The notes under the pieces are model-generated. The model was given only the letters and a program-made list of their open reading frames with translations. It made no database searches and had not been told where the DNA came from. Position numbers and translations under genes: made by a program. DNA of 48,908 nucleotides from a virus. The DNA lies in IMG/VR virus record IMGVR_UViG_3300041411_000157, positions 1 to 48,908 of that record; one strand, 5' to 3'. Shown here piece by piece: positions 13,925-46,017 of this stretch (within the stretch, counting starts at the first letter, position 1; each line of letters opens with the position of its first letter).

Positions 13925-14878
13925 ATGGCACTAAAATTAAACGAGCGTTACCCGGGGCGGTTCGATAATCCTTCTTCCGATTATCCTCAGGGGGCTTTTA
14001 AGAATAGAACTACGCCTACTGCAAAGGACGGATCCTATCTTGAAAAAGACTGGGCGAATGACAAGGAAGGGTTTTTCCAGTCGCTTCTTTCAGAGGCTGG
14101 AGTTATCGCAAATGGTGATGTCGATAAGGTTGGCGGCTCTCAATACTATGATGCTCTTCATAGCTTGATGCGTGGCCGACTGCTAAGAACTAGCGTCTAC
14201 ACCCTGATTGCTGGCGTTCAGAATGTTTCCATCGATGGCGGCGCACCAACTCCGACAGGGGCAGGCACATTCACGCCGCTAGCGTCAGCCGTCCGGATAG
14301 TGGCGGAAGGTGTTGGCGGGGGCGGAGGGTCAGGCGCTACCACTGCCACCGGGGGCAGTCAGTTTGCAATAAGCGGCGGCGCATCTGGCGCGTGCTATGG
14401 CCTTGGGACCTACCCAGCCCCGGCGGCGGCCATTGCGGTTTCTATAGGACTTGCCGGGGTGGCTGGGGCAGCCCCCGGCGGGAGTGGCGGCAATGGAGGA
14501 ACCACATCTCTTGGCGCATTGCTTTCAGTCGGCGGCGGATCGGGCAGCACTGGATCGGCGGCGCAAACCGGCAACCTTGTTCAGGGCGGAGCCGCAACCG
14601 CAAAAACCGTAACAGGTGCGAATATTTATTCGGCTAACGGAGGCTATGGGCATTACGGGATTTCACTGACATCGTTCATTGGTGGCGTTGGCGGGTCCAC
14701 TGTTTTTGGTCCTGGTGGTTCGCCTGGTCTTGCCAATACGGCAGGGACAGCCTCTACGGGCAACCCAGCAACGTCGCCAGGCGCTGGCGGCGGCGGGTCA
14801 GCTACTGCTCCAAGTGCCGCTGCACAGCCAGGGGCAAAGGGCGCGGACGGCTTGCTAATCATTCGGGAATACGCATAA
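13925..14878 (+). CDS. Tail fibre/adhesin with glycine-rich tip
   Basis: A 317-residue protein. Residues 1-90 look like a baseplate-attachment part. From about residue 110 it becomes very rich in Gly, Ala, Ser and Thr with blocks such as EGVGGGGGSGATTATGG, GGSGGNGGTTSLGAL and GAGGGGSATAPS, ending LLIIREYA. This is the pattern of polyglycine-rich receptor-binding adhesins (as in phage S16 gp38). It probably binds the host surface. Codon use becomes more AT-rich than in the upstream baseplate genes. A chaperone-like gene follows directly. Confidence 0.75.
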   Translation: MALKLNERYPGRFDNPSSDYPQGAFKNRTTPTAKDGSYLEKDWANDKEGFFQSLLSEAGVIANGDVDKVGGSQYYDALHSLMRGRLLRTSVYTLIAGVQNVSIDGGAPTPTGAGTFTPLASAVRIVAEGVGGGGGSGATTATGGSQFAISGGASGACYGLGTYPAPAAAIAVSIGLAGVAGAAPGGSGGNGGTTSLGALLSVGGGSGSTGSAAQTGNLVQGGAATAKTVTGANIYSANGGYGHYGISLTSFIGGVGGSTVFGPGGSPGLANTAGTASTGNPATSPGAGGGGSATAPSAAAQPGAKGADGLLIIREYA

Positions 14879-15464: not shown

Positions 15465-15492
15465 TGAGTCTCAAGCCTTGGCGAGAGACTCA
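15465..15492. other. Stem-loop between convergent genes
   Basis: TGAGTCTC (15465-15472) and GAGACTCA (15485-15492) are perfect 8-base inverted repeats with a 12-base loop. It lies between the rightward tail operon and the leftward glycosyltransferase-like gene and overlaps the latter's stop codon. There is no T tract, so termination would be weak or factor-dependent. Confidence 0.5.
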
Positions 15493-17520
15493 TGAGCGAC
15501 TCGGATCGGGTGGTGAGAGTGCCTTTTGAACGGAATCAATGTGCAAATCATCTAGGGTTACGAAACCTCGACCCGTTGACCACCCTCCCAAACCAAAGGA
15601 AATTCTGAATGGGGTACCGTCCGAGACATAATAAGTTACAACACTCTCGTTTGAGCCTTGAGGAGTCATTATTGGAAACAGAACTCTCTTCGAATGTATA
15701 GAAATATGGCCCGAGTTGGCTTGATCCTTTCCAGGTTCTGATTTCCAGCTAAGAGTAGCCGCAATCCGATATAATCCACTGGGCAAATTTATCTCTTGAG
15801 ATGCTAGCCCCGAATCGGTGAAGGATTCAGAATGAACACTGCGCCTTTCAGTATCAATATTTCCTTCACCATAACGATCAAACTTAAAGTCTGATGCAGC
15901 ATATACATTTCTAATAGTATAAAGCGCTTTGTTCCCGTAGTCGGTTACTTCTACTTCCAGCCCATTAGCGCCAGCGCCAAATGAGATCCGACAATCAGAA
16001 ATCGAAGTAGGGACTCGCCAACCGAATACAATTGCCCATTGCGCTGGATTTATACCAAATTTCAAGCCGTCCCGATAAAGTACGGACAGCGCTCCAACAA
16101 TAGGTAGCCAATCGTTTTCCCCCATAAGGATTGTTGCAGGGCCTTCGCACTTATGTATTGCGGATGAAATCTCTTTAGAGAGTTTCAGTACAGCAGAATT
16201 AGGGGTCTTATAAGTTAATAGAGTATGGCCGATATCATGTGAGCTGCCATGGATGAAAAATAGAATTGCCATTGTTGCGAACGTACTAATGGCCAGTAAT
16301 CGAAGTTTTGAATCGAGCGCCCCTTGAATCAACAATGTCCATGCCAGCAGAATAAACACACTGATTATTGGTATGAATGTAATGCTATGAGGCAATATCG
16401 GTCCGACGACTTTAGTTAGTGCGTACAGGTAGGTAATAAGCTGGAGGCAAACTATAAAGCTTAGAATTAAGGCGAATTTATATTTTTTTAGGTAAGCTAG
16501 CCACAAGCCCAAGAACGCAAGAAAAATTAAAACTCCACCCGCTATCATAGAATAATTCTCTGACGGCAAGTTTTCATAAAACAGTTTATTGCCTAATACT
16601 GGCTCCCCCATCAAAACCGCCAATGCACGAACCGCTTCTATCAATGTATGCTCGCCAGGCCCTCTTGACAGAAAAAAAGAGATTATCCGCTGGAGGTTTT
16701 CGAATTCCAATAGAGGTGGTAGCCAAAGCACTATACAAAAAACAATGCCAGCCGCAGCATATATATAATCACTATGCGATGGTTTTCTCTCTATACAAGA
16801 TAGCACGAAAGCACTTAGCCCTAAACTAACCACGGGCAGCCAAAAAGCAACATGCATTTGCGCCACGTAGGTCAGTACAAGGCCAAGTAATAGAAAATAC
16901 TTAATTCCGTTCAATGCAACAAAACAGGCAAGACTAATCGCAAGTATCCACGGAAAGATCGTCGCCAAGGGCAGCAAGACATCATAAAACACACCCGCTC
17001 CCAGTGCGGAATACGAATAAATTACTGCTACCGAAATGAAAATACCGGCCGTCTGACTATTCGAAAGTCGCGTAATCACAAACACTGTAGCGGTTAAAAA
17101 AAACACATTATAGGCAAGAGTTGCCGCCATTAAAATCTGTTCACCTCCTCCAGATAAGTAATACCATGGTAGTAAGAGATAATAGTTTATCGGCCCCGGA
17201 TGAGCCCATCCAAAACGAGACGATATCCCGACGGTCTGTTCAAGCTTTGAGGCGTGATACATGTCAACTAAAAAAATACCATAATCGCTAGCCCAGTACA
17301 TCTTAAGGCCATATCCATCCAATAGCGTTAAAAAAATAATTATTGCTCCCGCTCCTAGTAGCAGAAAAGGAATACAGCTCAGTACTCTCCGAATAAATTG
17401 GAGGTCTACATTTTTGCTAGTGTTCGATATGGTGTTCAAGTTTGTATGGCTTCCCAGTTGCCCAGTATCACATCTATTTTTAGTTTGGCGGAAGTATACA
17501 CAGACGTGGTGATTTTTCAC
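15490..17520 (-). CDS. Polytopic membrane glycosyltransferase-like protein, probable lysogenic conversion gene
   Basis: A 676-residue protein with an N-terminal cytosolic part, about ten or more hydrophobic segments (from about residue 48 to 435), and a soluble C-terminal beta-rich domain (about 440-660) ending in a jelly-roll-like FGLGGWSTGRGFVTLDDLHI. The first loop has SDYGIFLVD and GWAHPGPINYYLLLPWYYL, resembling the acidic loop of GT-C sugar transferases. The gene stands alone on the opposite strand next to the tail fibre genes and is much richer in A+T (16441-16500 has 19 G/C of 60), so it was probably acquired. It may alter O-antigen. GTG 17520 is the first in-frame start; the ribosome site is weak. 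Confidence 0.65.
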   Translation of the reverse strand: MKNHHVCVYFRQTKNRCDTGQLGSHTNLNTISNTSKNVDLQFIRRVLSCIPFLLLGAGAIIIFLTLLDGYGLKMYWASDYGIFLVDMYHASKLEQTVGISSRFGWAHPGPINYYLLLPWYYLSGGGEQILMAATLAYNVFFLTATVFVITRLSNSQTAGIFISVAVIYSYSALGAGVFYDVLLPLATIFPWILAISLACFVALNGIKYFLLLGLVLTYVAQMHVAFWLPVVSLGLSAFVLSCIERKPSHSDYIYAAAGIVFCIVLWLPPLLEFENLQRIISFFLSRGPGEHTLIEAVRALAVLMGEPVLGNKLFYENLPSENYSMIAGGVLIFLAFLGLWLAYLKKYKFALILSFIVCLQLITYLYALTKVVGPILPHSITFIPIISVFILLAWTLLIQGALDSKLRLLAISTFATMAILFFIHGSSHDIGHTLLTYKTPNSAVLKLSKEISSAIHKCEGPATILMGENDWLPIVGALSVLYRDGLKFGINPAQWAIVFGWRVPTSISDCRISFGAGANGLEVEVTDYGNKALYTIRNVYAASDFKFDRYGEGNIDTERRSVHSESFTDSGLASQEINLPSGLYRIAATLSWKSEPGKDQANSGHISIHSKRVLFPIMTPQGSNESVVTYYVSDGTPFRISFGLGGWSTGRGFVTLDDLHIDSVQKALSPPDPSRS

Positions 17521-19300: not shown

Positions 19301-20473
19301 TCATGCTGACTCCTCCTTAGGGAGTTGAACCGGCGTCCCGAACATTTCCACGGCGCGATTGCCGGAAGTGTCGTTCTCGCTGGGTATCCATCGGCCGTAG
19401 ACTCGGGCGATCATAGTCCAGTCCTTGTGACCCATTTGTTTGGCGACCCACATTGGGTGCTCTCCGGCCGAAAGCATCATCGATGCGTATGTGTGCCGGG
19501 TCTGGTAGGGGTTCCGATACCGAACCTTCGCCTTCCTGAGCGTCGGTATCCAGAAGCTTTTGCGAATAGCCTGATCGCCGTCGAACGGCTTGCCGTATCG
19601 CGAGTCATGGAAAATCACGTCACCTTCTATATAGGTGTGCACCTTCTGAGCCGTCAGCGCCTCCAGCGCCATTGGCAAAAGCTTCACGCTCCGAATCCCC
19701 GCTGCCGTCTTCGGCAACTCTGCTTCCTTGGCCGCTCTGGTCAGTCCTCGCGATATCCGTATCTCCCCACGCAACCAATCCACATCCCCCCATTCAACTG
19801 CAATGAGTTCGCTTGTGCGCAGCCCGGTCCATATGGCGAACTGCAACAGGTTCCGGTATTGGCCGTCGGTGCCGGCCAGAATCAGCCGCTGTTCCTCAGG
19901 CGAGAACGGGTCGATCTCGTCCTCCGTCTTCGGCTTCTCCCTGACCGAGTACGTCCAGCCCGCCATAGGGTTGATCTCGATCAGTTCGTCATGCACCGCA
20001 TCGTTCAGCGCCGACCGTAGGCAGCTCTGTACGTTGGACAGTCGCTTGTTCGAAGCGTCCATGCTCGCCATAGCCTCCTTGACCATCTTGCGACTGAGCA
20101 GCACCAGGGGGTGGTCGCCCAGCTTCGGCACCAGAACCCCGTCGATGATTTTCCGATAGCCATCGATCGTACTGGCCTTCAGACCCTTCTCTTTCTTCTC
20201 CAGCCAGCTTGCGAGGTATTTCGACAGCGGGACTTGCCCTGTCTGATATCCAAGCCGATTGGCTCGCTTGGACTTGGGGAAGGTGGCCAGATAGTCGAAC
20301 GTGCCGTTGTAGATCGCCAGTTCGATAGCCGCCTTGTGCTGCTCGGCGCGCTTCAGATTAGCGGGGCTGGGCTCAATTGGGAGCCGCTCGCGGCACTGGG
20401 CGCCCTCGAGCATGAAGGTGATCTCAATGCTGCTCTTGGACGCCGCTCGAACGCCGCTGCGCTTTCCACCCAT
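19301..20473 (-). CDS. int: Tyrosine integrase
   Basis: A 390-residue site-specific recombinase. The N-terminal arm-binding part (GVRAASKSSIEITFM, DUF3596-like) is followed by a SAM-like core-binding domain (about 80-180) and the catalytic domain with Arg219 (TGLRTSEL), Arg326/His327 (YQTRHTYAS), His349 (MGHKD) and Tyr359 (ARVYGRW). The excisionase reads into its 5' end by 121 bases. It inserts the phage at attP just downstream. Confidence 0.92.
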   Translation of the reverse strand: MGGKRSGVRAASKSSIEITFMLEGAQCRERLPIEPSPANLKRAEQHKAAIELAIYNGTFDYLATFPKSKRANRLGYQTGQVPLSKYLASWLEKKEKGLKASTIDGYRKIIDGVLVPKLGDHPLVLLSRKMVKEAMASMDASNKRLSNVQSCLRSALNDAVHDELIEINPMAGWTYSVREKPKTEDEIDPFSPEEQRLILAGTDGQYRNLLQFAIWTGLRTSELIAVEWGDVDWLRGEIRISRGLTRAAKEAELPKTAAGIRSVKLLPMALEALTAQKVHTYIEGDVIFHDSRYGKPFDGDQAIRKSFWIPTLRKAKVRYRNPYQTRHTYASMMLSAGEHPMWVAKQMGHKDWTMIARVYGRWIPSENDTSGNRAVEMFGTPVQLPKEESA

Positions 20474-25613: not shown

Positions 25614-26483
25614 TCAGAGCGCTCCGCTAACCCGCTCATACTCGGAGTCAAGCAGCGAGTCGTCTTGATCTTCATCGGTGGCCGCCGACAAAAAGGCCGT
25701 GACGATCGGAGCGACGGCCTTGGCCTGAGTGATCAGGAACAAATGCCCGTCGTCGATGACGTGCAGTTCGGAGTTCGGAATCAGGTTGGCCAGGATGCGC
25801 ATGTTGACCAGCGGGATCAGTGGGTCATCGTTGCCGGCCAGGACCAGGGTCGGCTGCTTGATTCGGTGCAGCCAGTGGATTGAAGTCCACCAGTAAACAG
25901 CCGCCATCTGGTAGTAATAACCTCGGCCGCCTGCCGACTTCATCTTGCTGGCGTGAGCGGTGGCCAGCGTTTTGTCGTATCTGAACGATCCGCCGTAGAT
26001 GTCCGGCGCGATCTCCGCCCCGTGCTCGGGGTTGGTGTAGCGCAGCGGACTGGCCATCAGCGCCAGGACTTTCGGGGATGGCGGGACGCTGAGCACGCCG
26101 GCCGAAGTCGCAGCCAGGATCAGCTTGCCGCAGCGCTTCGGGTGATCGTGAGCGAACTGCTGGGCGAGAAAGCCGCCCCATGAAACGCCGATCACATTGA
26201 CCTGATCGTATTCGAGCGCATCCAGCATCTTGGCGACGGTCCTAGATAGGCCCTTGAAGCTGTATGGCAGGAGCGGAGCAGGAGAGCCGCCAACGCCCGG
26301 AGCATCGAAAGCAATCACCTCCTGATCCGGGTCGAGCTCCTGCACGAAGGGGAGAACCAACTCAAGACTCGCGCCGATACCATTGAAGACCATCAACGGA
26401 GTCAGGTGAGGCGTGCCGGGGCGTACCGCAGTGCGGATGGATTGGCCGTCGATGTTCAGTGTGCGGAAAACAAACGCCTTCAT
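25614..26483 (-). CDS. phaZ: Alpha/beta hydrolase resembling PHA depolymerase PhaZ
   Basis: A 289-residue protein that matches, as I recall it, the Pseudomonas intracellular medium-chain polyhydroxyalkanoate depolymerase along its length: FRTLNIDGQSIRTAVRPGTP, FNGIGASLELVLPFVQ, TSIHWLHRIKQPTLVLAG. The nucleophile is Ser101 in GVSWGG, with Asp220 and His247 (DDGHLF) as partners, almost the same numbering as the known triad. The enzyme would cleave stored PHA granules to hydroxyacids in the cytoplasm; there is no signal peptide. It has its own GGAG site and shares the direction of the retroelement and methyltransferase genes. Substrate not proven. Confidence 0.82.
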   Translation of the reverse strand: MKAFVFRTLNIDGQSIRTAVRPGTPHLTPLMVFNGIGASLELVLPFVQELDPDQEVIAFDAPGVGGSPAPLLPYSFKGLSRTVAKMLDALEYDQVNVIGVSWGGFLAQQFAHDHPKRCGKLILAATSAGVLSVPPSPKVLALMASPLRYTNPEHGAEIAPDIYGGSFRYDKTLATAHASKMKSAGGRGYYYQMAAVYWWTSIHWLHRIKQPTLVLAGNDDPLIPLVNMRILANLIPNSELHVIDDGHLFLITQAKAVAPIVTAFLSAATDEDQDDSLLDSEYERVSGAL

Positions 26484-26543: not shown

Positions 26544-27704
26544 TTATTTCTTTGGGTATGTCTTTGTCAGTGCGCCATTGACGCTGTGACCGCGTTTCAG
26601 AACGACACGAGCCAATTTCTCCCGGTCTTTTTCACTGTGGCTGGCCTGGCTGAGCAGGCCGAAATAGCTGTTGGCGGTTTCGCGAAGATCCTCGGCCGGT
26701 GCCGCAGCGGTCCGTTTGAGGGCCTGAGCCAGCGAACGCTTTCGGGTTGATCGCCGCCACGGCTTGATGACGTGGCCAACGAAGTCGACGCCGCGATCTA
26801 CCGGCTGAAGGATGGTCTTCGATGGGTTTAACTTGGCGCCGAGGCTTGGCAGGAATGCTTCGACCTCTGCCAGCCAGGCGTTGAGTTGTTGCGGCGACTC
26901 ATGCAGGAACACGAAGTCATCTACGTAGCGGACGTAATGCTTGGCGCCGAGCTTGTGCTTGGCGAACTGGTCCAGCGCGTCGAGGTAGACGTTGGCGAAG
27001 AACTGCGACGACAAGTTGCCGATCGGCAGTCCGAGGTGCGCAGGTTGCGCGGTCAGGCGTTTGTGCTGCGGCACCCGGTTGAACAGATGGGCCGGACTGC
27101 GTACCTCGTAGTCTTCGCGAGGGTCGTGCATCAGGATCTGTTCAGCGAGTGCCAGCCACCACGGCTCAGTGATCTTGGCGGCGAGCTGCTTGCGCAGAAC
27201 CTCTTTGTCGATCGCGACGAAGAAGTTGGCCAGGTCGCACTTGAGGTAGAAGAGCGGCTTCGACCAGTTCTGGCTGGCGCTGCGGATCTTAGCCTCAAGC
27301 CGGGTGGCGGCGTACAACGTGCCGCGCCCAGGAATGCATGCGCAACTGTCCGCTATGAAGCTGGCGTAGAAGCGCGGTGCCACTCGGTTGTACAGAAGGT
27401 GGTGGACGACGCGATCCCGGAACGCTGCAGCCCAAACCTCGCGGGCTTTCGGTCGGGTGACCACGAAGCATATCGAGCGGCCTGGCCGGTAAGTGCCGGT
27501 GATCAGGTCGTCGTGAAGTTTGATCAAGTTGCGCTCCAAGTCCATTTCGAAAGCCAGCGCACTGGCGCTGTTGCGCTTCGTGCGGCGGCAGTCGTAGTAG
27601 GCCTGGACAAGATCGCTGAACGGGTAGGGACCAACAGTCGAATCTGCGGACGGGGCGGACACGGAGCTCGTTGTTCTTGTCGTTGTTGTTCTGATTGCCA
27701 TCAT
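26544..27704 (-). CDS. Reverse transcriptase of a diversity-generating retroelement
   Basis: A 386-residue reverse transcriptase. DGR-type motifs are clear: RRTKRNSASALAFEMDLE, RDRVVHHLLYNRVAPRFY, FYLKCDLANFF (catalytic Asp), GLPIGNLSSQFFANVYLD and YVRYVDDFVF (catalytic DD, about 248-257). It copies the template repeat RNA with errors at adenines. The conserved N-terminal domain leaves no start downstream of the template repeat, so the start (ATG 27704 or 27701) lies inside the template repeat. The first 20 or so residues (rich in Thr and Ser) are template-encoded. Confidence 0.92.
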   Translation of the reverse strand: MMAIRTTTTRTTSSVSAPSADSTVGPYPFSDLVQAYYDCRRTKRNSASALAFEMDLERNLIKLHDDLITGTYRPGRSICFVVTRPKAREVWAAAFRDRVVHHLLYNRVAPRFYASFIADSCACIPGRGTLYAATRLEAKIRSASQNWSKPLFYLKCDLANFFVAIDKEVLRKQLAAKITEPWWLALAEQILMHDPREDYEVRSPAHLFNRVPQHKRLTAQPAHLGLPIGNLSSQFFANVYLDALDQFAKHKLGAKHYVRYVDDFVFLHESPQQLNAWLAEVEAFLPSLGAKLNPSKTILQPVDRGVDFVGHVIKPWRRSTRKRSLAQALKRTAAAPAEDLRETANSYFGLLSQASHSEKDREKLARVVLKRGHSVNGALTKTYPKK

Positions 27705-27744
27705 CGAAGTTCATGTTGAATGCGTTGTTGGCGGAGCGCTGCGA
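27644..27744 (-). repeat. DGR template repeat (TR)
   Basis: 101 bases sharing fixed ends with the two variable repeats. On the coding (minus) strand it is rich in AAC codons; reading it in the target frame gives SANNAFNMNFDDGNQ then NNNDKNNELRVRPVR. The template differs from the variable repeats only at adenines (12 and 17 sites). The final 27 bases, CGAGCTCC through CCGTCCGCAG, are identical in all three copies and act as the homing-initiation (IMH-like) part. The repeat overlaps the 5' end of the reverse transcriptase frame. Confidence 0.93.
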
Positions 27745-27915
27745 CCTATCGTGCTATCTACGTCGCCAAGCCGAAGGCAGAGCCGATCAGCGAGGAAACT
27801 GCGCGAGACCTGCACGGACGCTTTAGACCGTCGGTATCTCTGATGCGCATGGCGGTGACCCAGAGGTCAGCGGCACGACCAGATTCAATTCGCACAGACC
27901 TGAAAGCCGTAACTC
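27745..27915. other. Noncoding gap between Avd-like gene and TR
   Basis: 171 bases with no convincing gene on either strand. It probably forms the leader of the template RNA, transcribed leftward from upstream. No clear promoter or terminator was seen. Confidence 0.5.
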
Positions 27916-28272
27916 TCAGGTGGCGGGCGCGGTTGGGGTGGAGCGTTTCCAGGCGTTTGCCTGTTTGCCAATCGAGGTGGTGACCTCTATTGCATTGGCA
28001 TGCTGCGGAACGCTGATGAATCGGCTCTCTTTGAAAAGCCGCATCAGGAACTCGATCACCTGGACCTTCTCGACCAGCAAGGTCAGGTGTGGGCGTTTGT
28101 CAGGCGTCGCGTTGGCCCGAGCGATCAACATCAGCACGTCGATGCACTCATCGATGACGCGCTTCCCGAGCGACTGCTTCAGGTCTCGGGGAATGTTGCG
28201 AGTGAGGTTCGTGGCCATCTGGAGCAGGCCGAGTGAAACCTTGTAGATCTGCAAGTCCGTGTGCATCGCCAT
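27916..28272 (-). CDS. avd: DGR accessory variability determinant (Avd-like)
   Basis: A 118-residue all-helical protein of the Avd / four-helix-bundle type: HTDLQIYKVSLGLLQMATN, IPRDLKQSLGKRVIDECID, RPHLTLLVEKVQVIEFLMRL. Avd forms a pentameric barrel that binds the reverse transcriptase and template RNA. The start at 28272 has GGAG 9 bases upstream. It lies between the variable gene and the template repeat, the standard DGR order. Confidence 0.85.
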   Translation of the reverse strand: MAMHTDLQIYKVSLGLLQMATNLTRNIPRDLKQSLGKRVIDECIDVLMLIARANATPDKRPHLTLLVEKVQVIEFLMRLFKESRFISVPQHANAIEVTTSIGKQANAWKRSTPTAPAT

Positions 28273-28293
28273 GGGCGCGCTCTCCAAGAGCAA

Positions 28294-28311
28294 CCGGCCG
28301 CAAGCGGCCGG
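28294..28311. other. GC-rich stem-loop after variable repeat 1
   Basis: CCGGCCGC and GCGGCCGG (8-base stem, loop AA) lie 30 bases beyond the 3' end of variable repeat 1 on the coding strand. Known DGR targets have a short hairpin or cruciform just after the variable repeat; this could serve that role. With no T tract it is a poor terminator. Confidence 0.5.
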
Positions 28312-28325
28312 ATTAAATGAGCGAA

Positions 28326-28946
28326 TTAATCAATCAATTGACTGCGGACGGGGCGGACACGGAGCTCGCTGCCCTTGCCGTAGAGGTCCTGATAGCCATC
28401 ATCGAAGTACATGAGGAATGCGTTGTTGGCGGAGCGCTGCGAAGATGACCAGTACCAGGTGTCTTTGAAGGCTTCGGCGCCACCTTCTTGGAAGGCTGCC
28501 AGCATGGTCTGAGCCGGTGATTCTTCGGTGTACAGCAGACCGACAGGCTCGCTGTTCGGGTTGTCGCCGCTGCGCCCGTACTGCCAGTTCGTTTCGGTGG
28601 TCGGTTTGAAGTGGCGATACTGCAGCTCTTGCACGTCGCGCGCCGGGATCGCCCAGTCGTTGAAGCCGCCGATATCCAGAGCCAGCACCTGCTGTGCCAG
28701 TTCGCTGCTAGCCGCTGCCATCGCCTCGGTGTTAGCGCGGCTGTTGGTGAAGCTGTCAGCACCTTCGATCTTCTCGCCATACTCGCCCCAAGCACCGCTC
28801 AGTTCGTGCGCGGCGCCGGCGGTGATGTTCAGGTAGCGCTTGCCGGTGTCCGGGTCACGGTTAATGCCGGAGAAGAACCCGCCGCCGAAGGGCTGGCCGA
28901 TTTCCGGGATGGTCACTGCTGGTGCTACTTGAGCTGCTGCGGACAT
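28326..28946 (-). CDS. DGR target protein 1 (DUF1566/C-type-lectin-like)
   Basis: A 206-residue protein whose last 40 residues contain variable repeat 1. The body has DUF1566-like, formylglycine-enzyme/lectin-fold features: GGFFSGINRDPDTGKRY, LALDIGGFNDWAIPARDVQEL (about 95-115), DTWYWSSSQRSANNAF, and the end ELRVRPVRS. Variable residues in the repeat fall at template Asn codons. ATG 28946 has AGAGG. There is no signal peptide or fibre-like stalk, so how it reaches its ligand is open; it may be a virion surface protein. Confidence 0.85.
   Translation of the reverse strand: MSAAAQVAPAVTIPEIGQPFGGGFFSGINRDPDTGKRYLNITAGAAHELSGAWGEYGEKIEGADSFTNSRANTEAMAAASSELAQQVLALDIGGFNDWAIPARDVQELQYRHFKPTTETNWQYGRSGDNPNSEPVGLLYTEESPAQTMLAAFQEGGAEAFKDTWYWSSSQRSANNAFLMYFDDGYQDLYGKGSELRVRPVRSQLID
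28342..28442 (-). repeat. DGR variable repeat 1 (VR1)
   Basis: 101 bases aligned without gaps to the template repeat. There are 12 differences, all at positions where the template coding strand has A. They change Asn codons to Leu, Tyr, Asp, Gly, Ser and others within the 3' end of target gene 1. Confidence 0.93.
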
Positions 28947-28971
28947 GATCTTTCCTCTTTTCGAAGGCAAC

Positions 28972-28991
28972 AAAAAAGGCGCTGCTGCGCC
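28972..28991 (-). terminator. Rho-independent terminator after target gene 2
   Basis: On the minus strand GGCGC, loop AGCA, GCGCC is followed by six Ts (28977-28972). It lies 32 bases after target gene 2 and 45 bases beyond variable repeat 2. It could also be the hairpin needed for target recognition at VR2. Confidence 0.75.
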
Positions 28992-29022
28992 CGGTGCCGA
29001 TCAAGAACGAATGATTGAAGGA

Positions 29023-29634
29023 TTAAATAAAGAATCTGCGGACGGGGCGGACACGGAGCTCGACGCCCTCGACGCCGTAGTGCTGAAAGCCAACAACGAA
29101 GTGCATGTAGAATGCGTAGTTGGCGGAGCGCTGCGATGAGGACCAGTAGTAGCAGTCCTGAGCGAAGACCTCAGGACAGCTCAACCAGCCCTGATACAGC
29201 TCGGCGGCGGCCGGCAGGTAGAAATCATGATGACCATCGGCCTGGTACTCGGCGCAAGCATCGGCTGCTGGATACTTCCTCTCGTCGTCGTTGCCAATCA
29301 GAACCTGGGTGTTGGTGTAGCCGTCGGTTTTGCTGAGGCCTTTCACCTCAACTCCACGGCCGCCCCACTCAAGACTGCCGACATCCCTGGCGGCGATGAT
29401 CAGGTAGTGCGCAGGAACATCGCCGCGAGCCGCAACCAGTCCGCCATTGAAGCCGCCTTGGCCGGGCCACTCAGCGCCGAGCGCTGGGATGTTGGTTGGT
29501 GCGATTGGCTGGACATTCGCCGCCGGCGGCAGCACCAGGGCAAACGTGCTGGCCAGCGCCAGCTTTGCCAGTTGTGACGCTGGCATCTTGATCGTGGTGT
29601 CACCGTGTTTGAGTGTGATCATTTCGGGTTTCAT
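29023..29634 (-). CDS. DGR target protein 2 (DUF1566/C-type-lectin-like)
   Basis: A 203-residue protein with variable repeat 2 at its C-terminus. The N-terminal 30 residues (MKPEMITLKHGDTTIKMPAS) include a predicted strand and hydrophobic helix but no clear signal peptide. The body has GGFNGGLVAARGDVPAHYLI, HHDFYLPAAAELYQG, and YYWSSSQRSANYAFYM, ending ELRVRPVRRFFI. It shares the fold signature and repeat with target 1 but differs in the N-terminal half. GAGG precedes the ATG. A terminator separates it from target gene 1. Confidence 0.85.
   Translation of the reverse strand: MKPEMITLKHGDTTIKMPASQLAKLALASTFALVLPPAANVQPIAPTNIPALGAEWPGQGGFNGGLVAARGDVPAHYLIIAARDVGSLEWGGRGVEVKGLSKTDGYTNTQVLIGNDDERKYPAADACAEYQADGHHDFYLPAAAELYQGWLSCPEVFAQDCYYWSSSQRSANYAFYMHFVVGFQHYGVEGVELRVRPVRRFFI
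29036..29136 (-). repeat. DGR variable repeat 2 (VR2)
   Basis: 101 bases, gap-free with the template. There are 17 differences, all at template adenines (coding strand). The match to the template continues 4 bases further at the 3' side (GAAT before CTGCGG on the plus strand). Confidence 0.93.
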
Positions 29635-29751: not shown

Positions 29752-30066
29752 ATGTCAGTTTGGAGCGAGTTGTTTTCAGGCGTGGCTGGCGGGCTGCTGG
29801 TTTTAGGGGTTCAGAAAGCTGGAGCCACTTGGTCAAATCGTCGCGATTCTGATGCTATCTATCGATGGCTGCAGAGCGAGGCCAGAGTTGAAGGCTCCCA
29901 GGACTTCAGGTCAACCCGGGCAATTGCCAGCCATACAAACCTTACCGAGGAGCGTGCTCGCTTGCTCTGCAGCACTCATCCACTTATTTATCTGTCGACT
30001 GGAACCCAGCCAGACTTGTGGACGATAAAAGAGGGCAGCCGTAATCCAAGGCACCAGATGCTGTGA
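29752..30066 (+). CDS. Small membrane-anchored winged-helix-like protein, reverse-oriented
   Basis: A 104-residue protein on the plus strand inside the leftward region. The N-terminal segment (SELFSGVAGGLLVLGV) is a likely membrane helix; residues about 35-95 (AIYRWLQSEARVE, RSTRAIASHTNLTEERARLL) resemble a winged helix with the ending TGTQPDLWTIKEG. I have seen similar short prophage proteins of unknown role. Being alone and reversed, it looks like a moron expressed separately. Confidence 0.6.
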   Translation: MSVWSELFSGVAGGLLVLGVQKAGATWSNRRDSDAIYRWLQSEARVEGSQDFRSTRAIASHTNLTEERARLLCSTHPLIYLSTGTQPDLWTIKEGSRNPRHQML

Positions 30067-30378
30067 CTATTCGTCGTTACAGACGCGCAGCGCTTCGCGG
30101 TTGTAAGCGAGCTGCAATTTTGCCGACACGTTTTCGGGGATCTCGTATTCGTGGCGCGGTGGAGTCAGAAGCGGCGCGGACTTTTGAGGCCCCATTGCAT
30201 GAAGGTGGTGAATCATCAGCGTGATGGCCTCGCCCTGCTCCTCGATGCCGCTCCAGGCCATCAACTCAGCGAGCGCTTGGCGGGTGCCGGCCATGCAATG
30301 CAGCCTGATTTCTTCCTCGCCGCGAGTCTTTCGCCTCGCCGCTGTCTTTGCCGATCGGTCTTTCTGTTCGGCTGCCAT
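30067..30378 (-). CDS. Hypothetical early protein, possible DNA-binding
   Basis: A 103-residue protein with GGAG before ATG 30378. A basic N-terminus (KDRSAKTAARRKTRG) is followed by a strand (EIRLHCMAG) and two helices, a pattern compatible with a ribbon-helix-helix protein. No named family. Confidence 0.55.
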   Translation of the reverse strand: MAAEQKDRSAKTAARRKTRGEEEIRLHCMAGTRQALAELMAWSGIEEQGEAITLMIHHLHAMGPQKSAPLLTPPRHEYEIPENVSAKLQLAYNREALRVCNDE

Positions 30379-30387
30379 GATCCACTC

Positions 30388-31038
30388 CTACTGCTTTGGC
30401 TCTTTCGCGAAGAAGGCCGGCTGAGGCCCTGAAATACGCTTCGGGTAATCGATGTCGAACTTTGCAAGGATGCGGGCAAAGGTTTTGAATGTGACACCGA
30501 GCTGCCCCATAGCCTGGTTGCGCGAAAGGCCGATCTCTATGAAGGCCTTGATACGCTCGGCGCGCTTCTCGTCTTCTGCATCAGTGATGCGGCGGGGTCG
30601 CATATTGTTGTGGCCGTTATTTGTCGCTGGCAGGAATTTGAAGCCGCCTTCCACAGCGATTCGTTGGAGAGATCGTCGAGGCATGCCGGTCTGTTCGACG
30701 GCCTGTGCGTAGGTCGTGGTTTCGGCCAGCTTTCGGATTCGCTCAATCTGATCGACTTTGTCCTTTTCCCGTTGCGCATTGCGCGCTTCGCGATCGATGT
30801 CTCGCTGCGTGAGCTTGTCGATGTAGGTCGTGCTGGGCTCGGCCCGGTTCGCCGACTTGATCACCTTTACGCTCGGCGGCGGCTCATGCCTCACGGGTGG
30901 CGGTACGAAGCTCGGCCCCTGCAACACCTCAATAGCCCCTCCTTTGTTCAAGAAGACCTCCTGAAGCAGGGCCAGTTCGTGGCGTTGAGGGTCGAGCATT
31001 TGGATCATGGAAAGCTCGGTGCTGACGTATGCGTTCAT
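30388..31038 (-). CDS. Helix-turn-helix early protein
   Basis: A 216-residue protein. The central segment (about 100-135, KLAETTTYAQAVEQTGMPRR) is a HTH, and a second HTH-like segment near the end is FIEIGLSRNQAMGQLGVTFK. A long charged helix separates N-terminal and HTH parts. It overlaps the stop of the exonuclease gene (ATGA). Role in regulation or recombination is inferred from position. Confidence 0.6.
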   Translation of the reverse strand: MNAYVSTELSMIQMLDPQRHELALLQEVFLNKGGAIEVLQGPSFVPPPVRHEPPPSVKVIKSANRAEPSTTYIDKLTQRDIDREARNAQREKDKVDQIERIRKLAETTTYAQAVEQTGMPRRSLQRIAVEGGFKFLPATNNGHNNMRPRRITDAEDEKRAERIKAFIEIGLSRNQAMGQLGVTFKTFARILAKFDIDYPKRISGPQPAFFAKEPKQ

Positions 31039-32657
31039 GCTGCCACCTGCTCCAGGGTTACCCCCGGCACGTTGAATTCAGAACCTTGGGCATCGACAAG
31101 ATCATCGAGGCCTTTCCAGTTAACGGTCAGCACGCTGATTGGCACTTGACCGGCCGCCACAGCCTTCACCAGCGCATCGAGATCGGTCACCCGCGCTTCG
31201 AGCTTCATCGGCTTTGGCTGAACCTTGGCGGATGGGGCCACTGCCGAAACGCGCGATGCAGGCTGTTCAACTCTTACTGGCACAGGAGTCACTACCGGCT
31301 CGACTTGTTTCGCCTTTTCAGCATCGGCGATCTTCTGCAGCTCTTCTTCGCGAATCCGCTTACGAGTGGCTTCGGCTTTCTCTTCCTCGGCTTTCTCATG
31401 TTCCGAGATCCGAAATTTGATCAGCGTCACCAGATCGTCATTGGCCTTCGTTACCAACTGCTGAATGTCACTGAACAGGAAGGAGTGGTCGGTGGCGAGC
31501 TCGGCCAAGCTGGTCAGGTTCAGACGAATACAGTCAGCCGCCTGGCTGGCGTCGATCTTCGCTCGGGCCAGTTCGGTATCCACGGCATCCTGCAAGCTGG
31601 CGATGGTTCGCTTGTTTTTCATGGCGCCAAGGAAGTCAGCGGCGACTGCCGGCAGCGCCACTTTGCCCAGCGTCTTGTTGATTGCCGCGATGTGGTCAGC
31701 CAGCGCCTGCTCGGCCTTCTGCTTGATGTTCGACTTGACCAACAGCTCTTGCGCCTTCACCAGCTTGTCGACCTTCAGGCGAGTTTCGCGGGCGTGCGCC
31801 GAGACGCGATCCAGCGAGGAAAACAGTTCGTCGATGGTTGCGGTCTGGGATAACGCCTGCTTCTTCGCTGCCGCGACGGCTTCCTCGACATCGCCGCACC
31901 ACTTCACAGCCTTCTTCGCGTCGGCGAAGTCTTGATCGGTGGTCAGTTCGGTTTTCACCGAGTCGATGACCGCCAAGGCCGATCGCTCGAACACTTTCAG
32001 GTTGCTGGCGGTAACCATGCCGGTAAGTTCAATGCGCAGCGCTGGAAGCTCGTCAGGCGCCTTGCCGACGACAATCGACGGTGCGTCGGCCATCTCGAAG
32101 TTTGCCAGATCGGCCTCGAACTGCTTCCAGCCTTCGACCAGCTGTTCGGCACGGCCGGCGACCGGGCGATATTCCATGCTGACGAAGTTTTCGGCGGTGC
32201 CGTCCGAGCAAACGAAGATCACTTTCTCAGCACCACTCACCAGCAGTTGCTGTTCGAGCTGCCAGTAGTAATGCGGGGCTAGATCTCCAGCCCTCACCTG
32301 GGCGACCAGCGATTCGTTCCAGAGCTTGTGCTCGAACAATGTCTCTCCGAGCATCGTCGCGCCGTCCATCGACGCCAGCAGGTTGCCCAGCGTGCCAACT
32401 ACCGGATACAGCTCTTCCCCGATCAGCGCTTCGACCAGCGGACGGGCCGATGCTTCAGTGGCGTGACCCTTGTCGAAGATGTACTGCTGCGGCGGGGTAA
32501 CGTCGGCGACGATGCCGGTCTTCTTCATCGCGAGCAGTTCGGTGCGGGTCTGGTACTTCGACGCGCCTTGCATTGCCGGCGCTTCGGATGCGGTGAAGTG
32601 CTTGGCGCGCAATGCATGCCACTCGGCGGAGCCTTGGGCTACGTTATGAATAATCAT
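31035..32657 (-). CDS. YqaJ/lambda-exonuclease-like recombination nuclease
   Basis: A 540-residue protein. The N-terminal 220 residues fit the YqaJ viral recombinase domain: GSAEWHALRAKHFTASEAPAM, FDKGHATEASARPLVEAL, SMDGATMLGETLFEHK with acidic metal ligands, and HYYWQLEQQLLVSGAEK. The C-terminal 300 residues are mostly helical coiled coil. It would digest 5' ends of double-stranded DNA and hand single strands to Bet. It overlaps the Bet gene by 4 bases and has GGAG upstream. Confidence 0.82.
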   Translation of the reverse strand: MIIHNVAQGSAEWHALRAKHFTASEAPAMQGASKYQTRTELLAMKKTGIVADVTPPQQYIFDKGHATEASARPLVEALIGEELYPVVGTLGNLLASMDGATMLGETLFEHKLWNESLVAQVRAGDLAPHYYWQLEQQLLVSGAEKVIFVCSDGTAENFVSMEYRPVAGRAEQLVEGWKQFEADLANFEMADAPSIVVGKAPDELPALRIELTGMVTASNLKVFERSALAVIDSVKTELTTDQDFADAKKAVKWCGDVEEAVAAAKKQALSQTATIDELFSSLDRVSAHARETRLKVDKLVKAQELLVKSNIKQKAEQALADHIAAINKTLGKVALPAVAADFLGAMKNKRTIASLQDAVDTELARAKIDASQAADCIRLNLTSLAELATDHSFLFSDIQQLVTKANDDLVTLIKFRISEHEKAEEEKAEATRKRIREEELQKIADAEKAKQVEPVVTPVPVRVEQPASRVSAVAPSAKVQPKPMKLEARVTDLDALVKAVAAGQVPISVLTVNWKGLDDLVDAQGSEFNVPGVTLEQVAA

Positions 32658-33472
32658 GCTGCATCTCCATCGAGGGCTTTGAGATTGGTGATGGTTTCGA
32701 TCTGCTCCGCGCTCAGCGTGTATTTGCTGCGGATTGTCGCGATCAGGTGCTCAGGGCTGGTTCGGCCCGAGTCGATCAAGGGTTGCCACTTGACGACGTT
32801 TTCTTTCAGCAGTTCGTCCGGGTAGCCAGGTAGCGCTTCCGGCTCGGGCTGCGCCTGCTGAATTGGCGTTACATCGCGCACGGCTTCTTCGAATGCCTTG
32901 CCTTCCATCTCGTCAGCCGTCGGGGCCGATCCAACTTCGGGGAATGCCTTGCGCAAGGCTTGTGCCTCGGCGCACTTGGCGAGCTGGGCAAAGGCCCGGC
33001 GCTTCCACATCGCGTTCGGCGCGGCGCTGTCCTTGCTGGCGGTGGCGTAGTTTTCAAGCCAGCGCTCGTTGGCAGTGAATTCAGCGACAAGCCCGTTGGC
33101 CATCTGGCGCTTGACGGTCACTCGGCACCATTCCGGATAGGTGACATCGACGCCCGACAGCTTCGCGGTGATCGGCGGTCCGTATTCTGGGTCGCTGATC
33201 CCGGCGTATTGCCCGGTACGCGCCGCCTGAATTCGGTACAGGCCAATGCCCGGCATGACCGTGTCCTGCATCTTTTTCGTGTCTTTGTTCCAGATCGGTA
33301 CGATGTGCACCGGCTTCAGCATTGGGTCCAGGTGGGCGGCCTGGCAGTAGGCCAACACCATCACGACTGAATTGTGCGCAGCGCCCGGGTACAAGCTGCT
33401 GCTCAAAACCTCGACGAGTGCCGACTCCGACAACGCTGGCAAGTTTTCGGCCTGCTTCATTACTGCTGACAT
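32654..33472 (-). CDS. bet: Single-strand annealing protein (Bet/RecT-like)
   Basis: A 272-residue recombinase like lambda Bet: the core has YCQAAHLDPMLKPVHIVPIW, MPGIGLYRIQAARTGQYAG, and WKRRAFAQLAKCAEAQALRKAFPE (about 155-180). It anneals single strands after YqaJ-type digestion. ATG 33472 is chosen for GGAAGGA spacing; an earlier in-frame codon at 33490 is poorer. Confidence 0.88.
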   Translation of the reverse strand: MSAVMKQAENLPALSESALVEVLSSSLYPGAAHNSVVMVLAYCQAAHLDPMLKPVHIVPIWNKDTKKMQDTVMPGIGLYRIQAARTGQYAGISDPEYGPPITAKLSGVDVTYPEWCRVTVKRQMANGLVAEFTANERWLENYATASKDSAAPNAMWKRRAFAQLAKCAEAQALRKAFPEVGSAPTADEMEGKAFEEAVRDVTPIQQAQPEPEALPGYPDELLKENVVKWQPLIDSGRTSPEHLIATIRSKYTLSAEQIETITNLKALDGDAA

Positions 33473-33512
33473 GGGGATTCCTTCCGCCATGCAGGCGGCG
33501 TATGAGTTCGAA

Positions 33513-37335: not shown

Positions 37336-38064
37336 TTATTTACGGCGCGGAGAACGCCTGACGGTCGACCACCAGAAAACTCGGCCAAGCATTCTTACGT
37401 CGTCGGTGAATTGCTCAGCTGTCATGACTTCGTCGGGGAAGTCTTCAGAATTCTCGCTGCGAATTCTCACGCTACCACCAGGTAGTCGGTGGAGGTATTT
37501 CACCCTGAGCATACCCAATTGGTTGAAGGCGTAGATCTCGCCGTCAATGATTGAGGTGTCATCCAGATCGAAGCCAATCGCTGCGCCATCCAAAATAAGA
37601 CGCTCCATGCTACGGCCTTTAATCCTGGCACAAGCAGCGCTCTTGGCCTCAACGCCCGCTGCCTTTAATGTGGCACCGCTGAATCTGAGCTTCCTATCGG
37701 CAATTTCAACGACTTCAGACATACCCTGTCCACCGGCAAATTCGACTTCAGCAAAGTACGGTATTTCATACTCGTCGTCATCTAAGGATTCGCCTTCCTC
37801 CCACGCGTCCATATCCCCCAGCAGCTCAGCGTTCGCCTCGATGTGAGTCAGCCGCCCCTTCATCTCGCCGATACCATCAGAGAGCCATATGGCGCTCACG
37901 GAGCAGGCGTGGGCGATCTTCGCGATATGAGCGCTCTGTAGGTTCTTCCCTGTCTCAAGCTGGGAGATAACTGGCTGCTCAACGCCCACAAGCTCGGCGA
38001 GCTTTTTTTGCGTCAGGCGAGCGCCTTGGCGAGCCATTTTGATGCGGTTGGCAAGAGTATTCAT
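37336..38064 (-). CDS. cI: CI-like repressor with LexA-type (S24) autocleavage domain
   Basis: A 242-residue lysogeny repressor. The N-terminal HTH (about 5-60) contains RLTQKKLAELVGVEQPVISQ. The C-terminal S24 domain has the cleavage site EFAGG (Ala110-Gly111), nucleophile Ser152 (GRSMERL) and Lys189 (LRVKYL), so RecA-stimulated self-cleavage and SOS induction are expected. The ATG at 38064 is only about 9 bases from the -10 box of PRM, so the message may be nearly leaderless as in lambda. It probably binds the ATAAGC-type palindromes on both sides. Confidence 0.9.
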   Translation of the reverse strand: MNTLANRIKMARQGARLTQKKLAELVGVEQPVISQLETGKNLQSAHIAKIAHACSVSAIWLSDGIGEMKGRLTHIEANAELLGDMDAWEEGESLDDDEYEIPYFAEVEFAGGQGMSEVVEIADRKLRFSGATLKAAGVEAKSAACARIKGRSMERLILDGAAIGFDLDDTSIIDGEIYAFNQLGMLRVKYLHRLPGGSVRIRSENSEDFPDEVMTAEQFTDDVRMLGRVFWWSTVRRSPRRK

Positions 38065-38073
38065 CTTCACAAC

Positions 38074-38101
38074 GTTATAAGCCCTCTTATCTTCTTGCAA
38101 A
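38074..38101 (-). promoter_or_regulatory. Repressor maintenance promoter PRM
   Basis: On the minus strand TTTGCA (38101-38096), 16 bases, TATAAC (38079-38074), with the repressor ATG 9 bases further. It shares sequence with the divergent PR promoter, and an operator covers its -10. Confidence 0.65.
38077..38090. promoter_or_regulatory. CI/Cro operator between cI and cro (site at PRM)
   Basis: ATAAGCCCTCTTAT, matching the operator palindrome with one mismatch. A further half-site ATAAGC lies at 38101-38106. Confidence 0.7.
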
Positions 38102-44126: not shown

Positions 44127-44687
44127 ATGGCACTGACCCCAAAGCAGGAGGCCTTCTGCTTGGCCTACCTGAAGACGGGTAACGCCAGCGAGGCCTACAG
44201 GCAGGTATACGCTGCCAAGAACATGAAGCCAGCCACCATCAACGTGAAGGCGAGCGAATTGCTCTCTAACGGTAAGGTGACGGTAAGGCTTGCAGAGCTC
44301 AACCAATCGGCCGTGACCGACTCTGTGATGACCCGTCAGAGAGCCCTGGAGCGCCTCAGCCTGATTGCCGAGACATCCATCACCGACATCCTTGAGTTCG
44401 ACCAGCATGAGGTTGGCGGGCCTGACGGGCCTATCAGCGAAACCATCTGGCGCATGAAGGATAGCGACGAGATCCACGACATGGCATCGGCCACCATCAA
44501 GTCGGTGACCATGACCAAGTTTGGTCCAAAGATCGAGATGTATGACCGCCTGAGCGCGATTCAGCAGCTCGCCAGAATGCAAGGCTGGGAGTCTGCACAG
44601 AAGCATGACCATACCAGCAGCGACGGCAGCATGAGCCCCAAAGGGAAGTCTCTGGACGACTTCTACACCGGCGATGTACCAGCTTAA
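44127..44687 (+). CDS. terS: Terminase small subunit
   Basis: A 186-residue protein. LTPKQEAFCLAYLKTGNASE (about 3-22) then KPATINVKASELLSNGKV is the typical terminase small-subunit HTH region, which recognises the packaging start. ATG 44127 has GGAG 7 bases upstream. It overlaps the large subunit by 14 bases. Confidence 0.88.
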   Translation: MALTPKQEAFCLAYLKTGNASEAYRQVYAAKNMKPATINVKASELLSNGKVTVRLAELNQSAVTDSVMTRQRALERLSLIAETSITDILEFDQHEVGGPDGPISETIWRMKDSDEIHDMASATIKSVTMTKFGPKIEMYDRLSAIQQLARMQGWESAQKHDHTSSDGSMSPKGKSLDDFYTGDVPA

Positions 44688-46017
44688 CCCGAACCTTCGT
44701 GAGTTCTGGCGGATCAGGAAGCCGTACAAGCTTCTGAAGGGTGGGCGGTTCTCATCAAAGACCCAAGACGCGGGCGGCATGGCTGCCTTCCTGGCTCGCA
44801 ACTACACGGTGAAGTTTCTCTGCATTCGCCAGTTCCAGAACCGTATCGCCGATTCGGTGTATACGGTCATCAAGGAAAAGATCGAGCAAGCAGGTTGGTC
44901 GGACGAGTTTGATATCGGCGTGTCGTCGATCAAGCACCGCAAGACCGGCTCGGAGTTTCTGTTCTACGGCATCGCCCGCAACCTGAACGACATCAAGGGC
45001 ACTGAAGGCGTCGACATCTGCTGGATCGAGGAAGGCGAAGGCCTTACCGAAGATCAGTGGAAAGTCATCGACCCCACCATTCGAAAGCAGGGGTCGGAGA
45101 TTTGGATTCTGTGGAACCCGGATCTGATGACCGACTTTGTCCAGGCCAAGCTTCCAAAGCTGCTGGGCGACGACTGCGTCATAAAGCACATCAACTATGC
45201 CGATAACCCGTTCCTCTCCGACACAGCACGCGCCAAGGCTGAGCGGCTTAAGGAGGCAGATGAGGAGTCGTACAACCACATCTATCTCGGCCAGCCGCGC
45301 ACCAACGATGACGCCGCGGTTATCAAGTTCTCATGGGTGGAGGCATGCGTTAACGCGCATCTGAAGCTTGGTATGAGCTTGGCCGGCGCCAAGGCTGTCG
45401 GGTATGACGTGGCGGACAGCGGCGACGACAGTAATGCCTGCGCCATGTTCGACGGGGCTATCTGCTTTGAGATGGACGATTGGAAGGCTGGTGAGGACGA
45501 GCTGAACGAGTCGGCAATGCGTGCCTGGTCTCACGTTCGCGGTGGGCGCCTGATCTACGACAGCATCGGCAACGGCGCTCACGTGGGTTCCACGCTGAAG
45601 GCTGCACGCATTCATGGCGGGTACTTCAAGTTCAACGCCGCCGGCGCCATCGTCAATCCTGAGAAGGAATACGCGCCGAAGATCAAGAACAAGGACAAGT
45701 TCGAGAACCTGAAGGCTCAGGCCTGGCAGGACGTGGCCGACCGTATGCGCAATACGTTCAACGCGATCACCAAGGGGCACAAGTTCAAAGCCTCCGACCT
45801 GATCAGCATCTCAGGCGACCTGAGAAAGATCGAGCAACTCAAGCTCGAACTGTCTACACCTCGCAAGCGCTACAGCAAGCGAGGGCTGGATATGGTCGAG
45901 ACAAAGGATGAACTGGCCCGGCGCAGTGTTGCGTCCCCCAACCTGGCTGACGCATTCGTGATGGGCGCATGCCCGCACCTGGTGGCAAACGGAAGGCCTA
46001 TTCGAGACCTCCTCTGA
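44674..46017 (+). CDS. terL: Terminase large subunit
   Basis: A 447-residue ATPase-nuclease of the PBSX type. The ATPase part has KLLKGGRFSSKTQDAGGM (Walker A region, about 19-36), VDICWIEEGEGL (Walker B) and WILWNPD (coupling). The nuclease part has VGYDVADSGDDSNA and ends with PNLADAFVMG. It pumps DNA into the prohead. Confidence 0.9.
   Translation: MYQLNPNLREFWRIRKPYKLLKGGRFSSKTQDAGGMAAFLARNYTVKFLCIRQFQNRIADSVYTVIKEKIEQAGWSDEFDIGVSSIKHRKTGSEFLFYGIARNLNDIKGTEGVDICWIEEGEGLTEDQWKVIDPTIRKQGSEIWILWNPDLMTDFVQAKLPKLLGDDCVIKHINYADNPFLSDTARAKAERLKEADEESYNHIYLGQPRTNDDAAVIKFSWVEACVNAHLKLGMSLAGAKAVGYDVADSGDDSNACAMFDGAICFEMDDWKAGEDELNESAMRAWSHVRGGRLIYDSIGNGAHVGSTLKAARIHGGYFKFNAAGAIVNPEKEYAPKIKNKDKFENLKAQAWQDVADRMRNTFNAITKGHKFKASDLISISGDLRKIEQLKLELSTPRKRYSKRGLDMVETKDELARRSVASPNLADAFVMGACPHLVANGRPIRDLL

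Follow-up and report, generated by a model that had tools for sequence, protein, structure and literature searches.

A diversity-generating retroelement in the early region of a temperate Pseudomonas phage, with two lectin-fold targets as candidate intracellular binders

A complete diversity-generating retroelement (DGR) was identified in a lambda-like temperate Pseudomonas phage (IMGVR_UViG_3300041411_000157; "the window" denotes the whole stretch of 48,908 nt that was analysed). We propose, with a probability of about one half, that this DGR, located in an early pL-like operon, diversifies two small soluble binders, T1 and T2, which act in the cytoplasm. Their expression, location and ligand are inferred from the analysis presented below. 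DGRs of phages are mostly interpreted as switches of tropism; if the proposal is true, hypermutation in phages extends beyond the host-gripping parts to proteins with an intracellular action. This wider meaning is based on a widespread lineage, targets in early operons, purifying selection and frozen variants in lytic phages devoid of reverse transcriptase (RT). The early location, the wide conservation, a third target and the frozen orphan variants were not found in any earlier account in the open-licence PMC literature.

Early block and retroelement

The leftward block of the phage extends from a cI-like repressor to a tyrosine integrase. It contains RecT, a RecE-type exonuclease, an HTH gene, a C5 methyltransferase and the DGR cassette, with recT and recE upstream of the cassette. 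The genes to the left of the integrase are oriented rightward and comprise baseplate, fibre and lysis genes, while the large terminase is encoded at 44674-46017. The following features were considered:

37336..38100, minus strand: cI-like repressor (HTH and S24 peptidase), bounding the leftward block on its proximal side
32654..33490, minus strand: RecT single-strand annealing protein (phrog_2449, E 5e-107; Pfam RecT)
31035..32657, minus strand: RecE/YqaJ-type exonuclease (phrog_7655, E 3e-224)
30388..31038, minus strand: HTH-type early gene (phrog_9129)
30067..30378, minus strand: small early gene that precedes the cassette in many relatives (phrog_5439)
29023..29634, minus strand: T2, 203 aa, with N-terminal beta-hairpin and helix, linker and C-type-lectin domain with variable repeat (VR) (ORF; phrog_4245, E 4e-28)
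29036..29136, minus strand: VR2, in T2
28977..28992, minus strand: hairpin GGGCGC-AGCA-GCGCCT after VR2, with a subsequent T run; DGR hairpin, intrinsic terminator or both
28326..28946, minus strand: T1, 206 aa, lectin-fold protein with C-terminal VR (phrog_4245, E 1e-31; start corrected)
28342..28442, minus strand: VR1, in T1
28294..28311, minus strand: hairpin CCGGCCG-CTTG-CGGCCGG downstream of VR1, conserved in most relatives
27916..28293, minus strand: Avd, 125 aa (phrog_3206, E 3.5e-30)
27742..27932, minus strand: RT-15 structured RNA forming the template RNA leader (Rfam RF03018, 182 bits, E 5e-45)
27644..27744, minus strand: core of the template repeat (TR), 101 nt with 31 adenines (repeat alignment)
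26544..27704, minus strand: DGR reverse transcriptase (phrog_1423, E 2e-118; motifs)
19301..20473, minus strand: tyrosine integrase, bounding the leftward block on its distal side
13925..14878, plus strand: the phage's own tail-fibre protein, without VR (PHROG tail families)

Since the gene arrangement is that of lambda, early lytic expression of the cassette would be expected. Upstream of T2, a gap of 430 nt is present in the window, compared to approximately 30-60 nt in several relatives. It harbours an opposing 104-aa ORF (29752-30066, plus strand) for which no family match was obtained. Because of this gap and the opposing ORF, co-transcription of T2 with the upstream early gene is not certain in the window. 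A sigma-70 scan, which says little on phage promoters, gave no promoter before T2.

The machinery is that of an ordinary DGR, with RT-15 template RNA, TR, Avd and RT. The RT displays the DGR-type motifs GxxxSQ (as IGNLSSQ) and YxDD (as YVDD). Avd exceeded the cut-off of the Pfam bAvd model (44.2 bits against 40) and stayed below that of the NCBIfam Avd model. The RT-15 RNA continues directly into the TR, and the ATG codons listed as in-frame starts of the RT fall inside the TR, so that template and RT coding sequence may overlap. The TR core could be aligned to both VRs without any gap, and all 29 mismatches were located at TR adenines: 12 of 12 in VR1 (P about 1e-7) and 17 of 17 in VR2 (P about 3e-11), the null being mismatches placed at random. 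Besides VR1 and VR2, no further full VR copy and no third target were detected in the window, which indicates that the tail-fibre protein is not a DGR target.

Both VRs are followed by a hairpin. The one on the T1 side is conserved 15-19 nt past the T1 stop in most relatives, and its stem reaches at least 6 bp in 97 of the 116 loci versus 3% of shuffles. The loops are CTTG and AGCA, rather than the GRNA consensus that has been published from other phage DGRs. The VR2 hairpin, conserved after T2, precedes six T; as it resembles an intrinsic terminator, expression of T1, Avd and RT may depend on read-through or antitermination.

The system of Bordetella phage BPP-1 (mtd-avd-brt) is similar in many respects: the phage is temperate, TR and VR differ specifically at adenines, Avd and RT are present, and the target has a lectin fold with a hairpin after the VR, although with loops of the GRNA type. 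In contrast to BPP-1, where a single target, a tail protein, is diversified, two or three short targets are found here in the early block.

Lectin-fold target proteins

T1 and T2 are encoded by adjacent ORFs on the minus strand, both ending in VRs. Translation of T1 very probably starts at the ATG at position 28946 (MSA..., conserved in relatives) and not at the TTG at 28973. Both proteins matched the C-terminal 170 of the 583 positions of phrog_4245, a family without annotated function, and showed a weak match to Pfam Lcl_C, under the curated cut-off. Profiles built from 60 relatives each matched the C-terminal domain of Legionella Lcl in the PDB with E values of 0.0085 (T1) and 0.0004 (T2). 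Structure prediction, which had been proposed in the preliminary description, gave models with pLDDT of 74.6 for T1 and 78.8 for T2. Both superposed on the Lcl C-terminal domain 8q4e (Z 7.8 and 9.7, respectively), and T2 also on 4eps (Z 10.0), in a VIA-align comparison limited to 68-87 chains where the absence of other families is uninformative. Confidence was low in the VR loops. Profiles and models thus suggest that the bodies of T1 and T2 adopt a C-type-lectin fold of the DUF1566/Lcl type, as had been described from the sequence.

Legionella Lcl is a collagen-like adhesin. In contrast to it, T1 and T2 seem to lack both a collagen part and a secretion signal: no collagen or stalk segment was seen in either protein, and neither a signal peptide nor a lipobox or membrane anchor could be recognised by inspection and hydropathy in the families of T1, T2 and the third target (best 19-residue values of 0.81 for T1 and 1.35 for T2). 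This agrees with the preliminary description, according to which neither a fibre stalk nor a signal peptide is present and the N-terminal halves differ. Indeed, the N-terminal beta-hairpin and helix of T2, for which relatives show two or more clearly distinct sequence versions, are absent from T1. A DNA-binding role of this element was considered and dropped, as the VapB-like matches in Foldseek were at chance level; no Foldseek match of T2 in the PDB was significant by E-value. The PADLOC models of known anti-phage defence did not match T1, T2 or Avd.

Multi-target DGRs of bacteria also diversify several DUF1566 proteins, but in those cellular cases a link to membrane or adhesin domains is frequent (PMC6642488); T1 and T2 have no such domains. 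Closer in predicted location are the putative antigen sensors of multicellular bacteria, predicted cytoplasmic lectin-fold proteins with remote targets for which diversification in trans was considered (PMC10907252). Those sensors occur as fusions or in association with NACHT/STAND or further conflict domains, whereas T1 and T2 consist of little more than a lectin domain.

Conservation, third targets and frozen variants

Phages and prophages from across Pseudomonas repeatedly show the gene order T2-T1-Avd-TR-RT. Summed over 98 distinct loci, the mismatches between TR and VR amounted to 1421 at adenines versus 78 at other positions for T2, and to 1363 versus 101 for T1, the non-adenine counts being inflated by probably misaligned or degenerate rows (L061, L080, L158, L188, L079 and, for the third target, L026 and L179). 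A third lectin-fold target with an adenine-specific VR was found in 26 of the 98 loci, a lower bound given the limited flanks. It is located 2-7 kb upstream on the same strand, remote from the cassette (for example L008:717-1538, L015:634-1461, L161:3443-4063 and L061:3943-4479), and its VR has at most two non-adenine mismatches. The frameworks of T1 and T2 are under purifying selection, with median dN/dS of 0.17 and 0.11. In the same pairs, approximately 16-18 non-synonymous and 1-3 synonymous changes separate the VRs. Active retrohoming is suggested by this diversity of VRs between relatives.

The setting of the cassette is conserved as well. In nine relatives, the upstream genes include Erf, RecE or RecT, and the downstream genes gave seven integrase matches. 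The same cI-led block is present in Medea1 and Haboob, the tail operon of Medea1 being fully annotated on the other strand. An early or integration-side setting was also found in P. aeruginosa phages Haboob and LPPA56, in Burkholderia phage Magia and in Shewanella phage QDWS, and in the latter two the DGR adjoins the integrase. Magia shows the same order of RecT, lectin-fold target, Avd, RT and integrase, with 67% identity in the RT. Its authors assigned the DGR targets to two short ORFs (genes 47 and 57) in one sentence and suggested adaptation or a change of host range; they did not comment on the position outside the tail genes or on how far it is conserved (PMC7883833).

These data bear on the main rival explanation, which we consider rather unlikely: T1 and T2 would be accessory virion adhesins, as stand-alone receptor-binding tips or head decorations, and the DGR would switch tropism as in BPP-1. 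Besides the suggestion made for Magia, it is favoured by a large survey in which phage DGR targets were mostly tail proteins or "unknown", the known phage DGRs of three clades mostly targeting tail proteins (PMC8144416). Two further observations also count against an intracellular role. Homologous lectin domains terminate S74- and collagen-containing tail fibres in other phages, and in PMBT3 a stand-alone T1-like gene directly follows, and overlaps, a fibre-like gene matching virion and tail-fibre families. The N-terminal hairpin and helix of T2 could dock to the virion. On the other hand, the cassette sits with recombination and integration genes here and in the inspected temperate relatives, apart from the tail operons, which have fibres of their own; the T1 and T2 genes are approximately 13 kb away from the tail-fibre gene. 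Moreover, the same cassette is common to different tail types (myo and sipho), and neither a trimerisation stalk nor a fibre-assembly partner was seen nearby. The initial statement that neither target is a tail fibre and that both lie in the early block far from the tail genes holds for this phage, whose tail genes carry no VR, and for most of the relatives inspected.

Homologues of the targets without RT were identified in D3, PMG1, U9, FBPa42 and PAN70 and in the jumbo phages PA5oct and Paride, whereas an RT stump is retained in Aurca01, Medea1 and D14O. These orphan targets, from P. aeruginosa phages without RT and among them lytic jumbo phages, correspond to loci L152-L154, L204, L205, L207 and L212-L220. 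Several orphan VRs were close to the Haboob TR, compared to which they showed 17 adenine and no other mismatches in FBPa42, 14 and none in D14O, and 15 and one in PA5oct. As the differences are (nearly) restricted to adenines, these VRs were most likely made by the DGR lineage described here, either before loss of the RT, before transfer by recombination, or in trans. The tree of the orphan frameworks is weakly resolved and does not separate trans diversification from recombination. In the D3 reference (AF165214), a 2-base difference within the VR shifts the frame of orf68, while phi_D3 (PP944329) is intact there (L152:6016-6576 versus L213:2827-3504); faulty sequencing of the older entry may account for the frameshift.

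Among nine PA5oct-like phages, approximately four VR alleles occur. The members of the Paride group (Paride, Deifobo, 30-2 and MIJ3) share one VR peptide sequence and differ there by 0-6 synonymous changes, and non-synonymous changes outnumber synonymous ones in the rest of the gene. In two of the three allele groups of jumbo phages, all within-allele VR changes are synonymous (0 non-synonymous and up to 6 synonymous); the Cassandra/Ettore pair is less clean, with 5 synonymous and 3 non-synonymous changes. Outside the VR, non-synonymous changes mostly equal or exceed synonymous ones. A fixed binding face seems therefore to be preserved in lytic jumbo phages, as far as these small counts tell. 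The alternative that the cassette is decaying or selfish, and the diversified proteins without current role, is very improbable: the RT remnants and the D3 frameshift show that RT and targets can be lost, yet the framework dN/dS values (0.11-0.17) and the purifying selection on frozen VRs argue against it.

Candidate roles of the targets

Of the roles offered in the preliminary description, that of an intracellular binder fits best, virion decoration keeps some plausibility through PMBT3, and an exported binder lacks a recognised signal peptide. Use by the lysogen is weakened, because the operon is one that, by analogy with lambda, would normally be silenced by a cI-type repressor. It is quite improbable that T1 and T2 are surface or periplasmic binders expressed by the lysogen for superinfection exclusion or adhesion. 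Such a role would suit the RT-less homologue found in the leftward block close downstream of cI in several prophages and in D3, PMG1 and PAN70, approximately at the position of lambda rexAB, with a similar location in FBPa42, and the promoter predicted by the PMG1 annotators shortly before the homologue. Most DGR targets, however, are several genes into the early operon, and no anchor or export signal was recognised. Moreover, the homologue is conserved in PA5oct-like jumbo phages, with a variable face apparently under purifying selection; since these phages are lytic, the function is not confined to lysogens. In the portions of the open-licence PMC literature consulted, no statement was found on expression class or virion status of the PA5oct and Paride homologues.

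For the preferred intracellular binders, the following sequence of events is proposed. T1 and T2 would be transcribed early together with recT and recE. The RT-15/TR transcript would be converted to cDNA, which would home into T1 and T2 during phage genome replication, perhaps with the help of the phage annealing protein. Both proteins would be made in the cytoplasm and bind a variable partner there, the likeliest class being a host defence or regulatory protein, or a protein of a competing phage. Diversification of the binding face would let the phage population keep pace with a changing partner, and useful variants would be frozen upon loss of the RT. A role in counter-defence or host takeover would fit the position of the genes, the absence of recognised export signals, the diversification and the fact that lytic phages retain the homologue. 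As an unlikely extension, Pseudomonas phages might share a pool of hypervariable intracellular binders directed against defences or rivals, the DGR acting in trans on orphan targets of co-infecting phages, including lytic jumbo phages that freeze useful variants. The four frozen alleles of the jumbo phages represent ready-made baits for a partner search.

Two further genes of the window were noted. A 676-aa protein with many hydrophobic spans is encoded at 15490-17520 (minus strand), opposite to the tail-fibre assembly and endolysin genes between which it lies; it gave no match in PHROG, Pfam or NCBIfam and looks like a moron, perhaps a membrane glycosyltransferase. Adjoining the DGR, the gene at 25614-26483 (minus strand) codes for an alpha/beta hydrolase assigned by NCBIfam to poly(3-hydroxyalkanoate) depolymerase (TIGR02240, 434 bits, cut-off 251). 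It has counterparts in loci L004 and L007 at 92-93% identity and is possibly an accessory gene by which the phage mobilises a carbon store.
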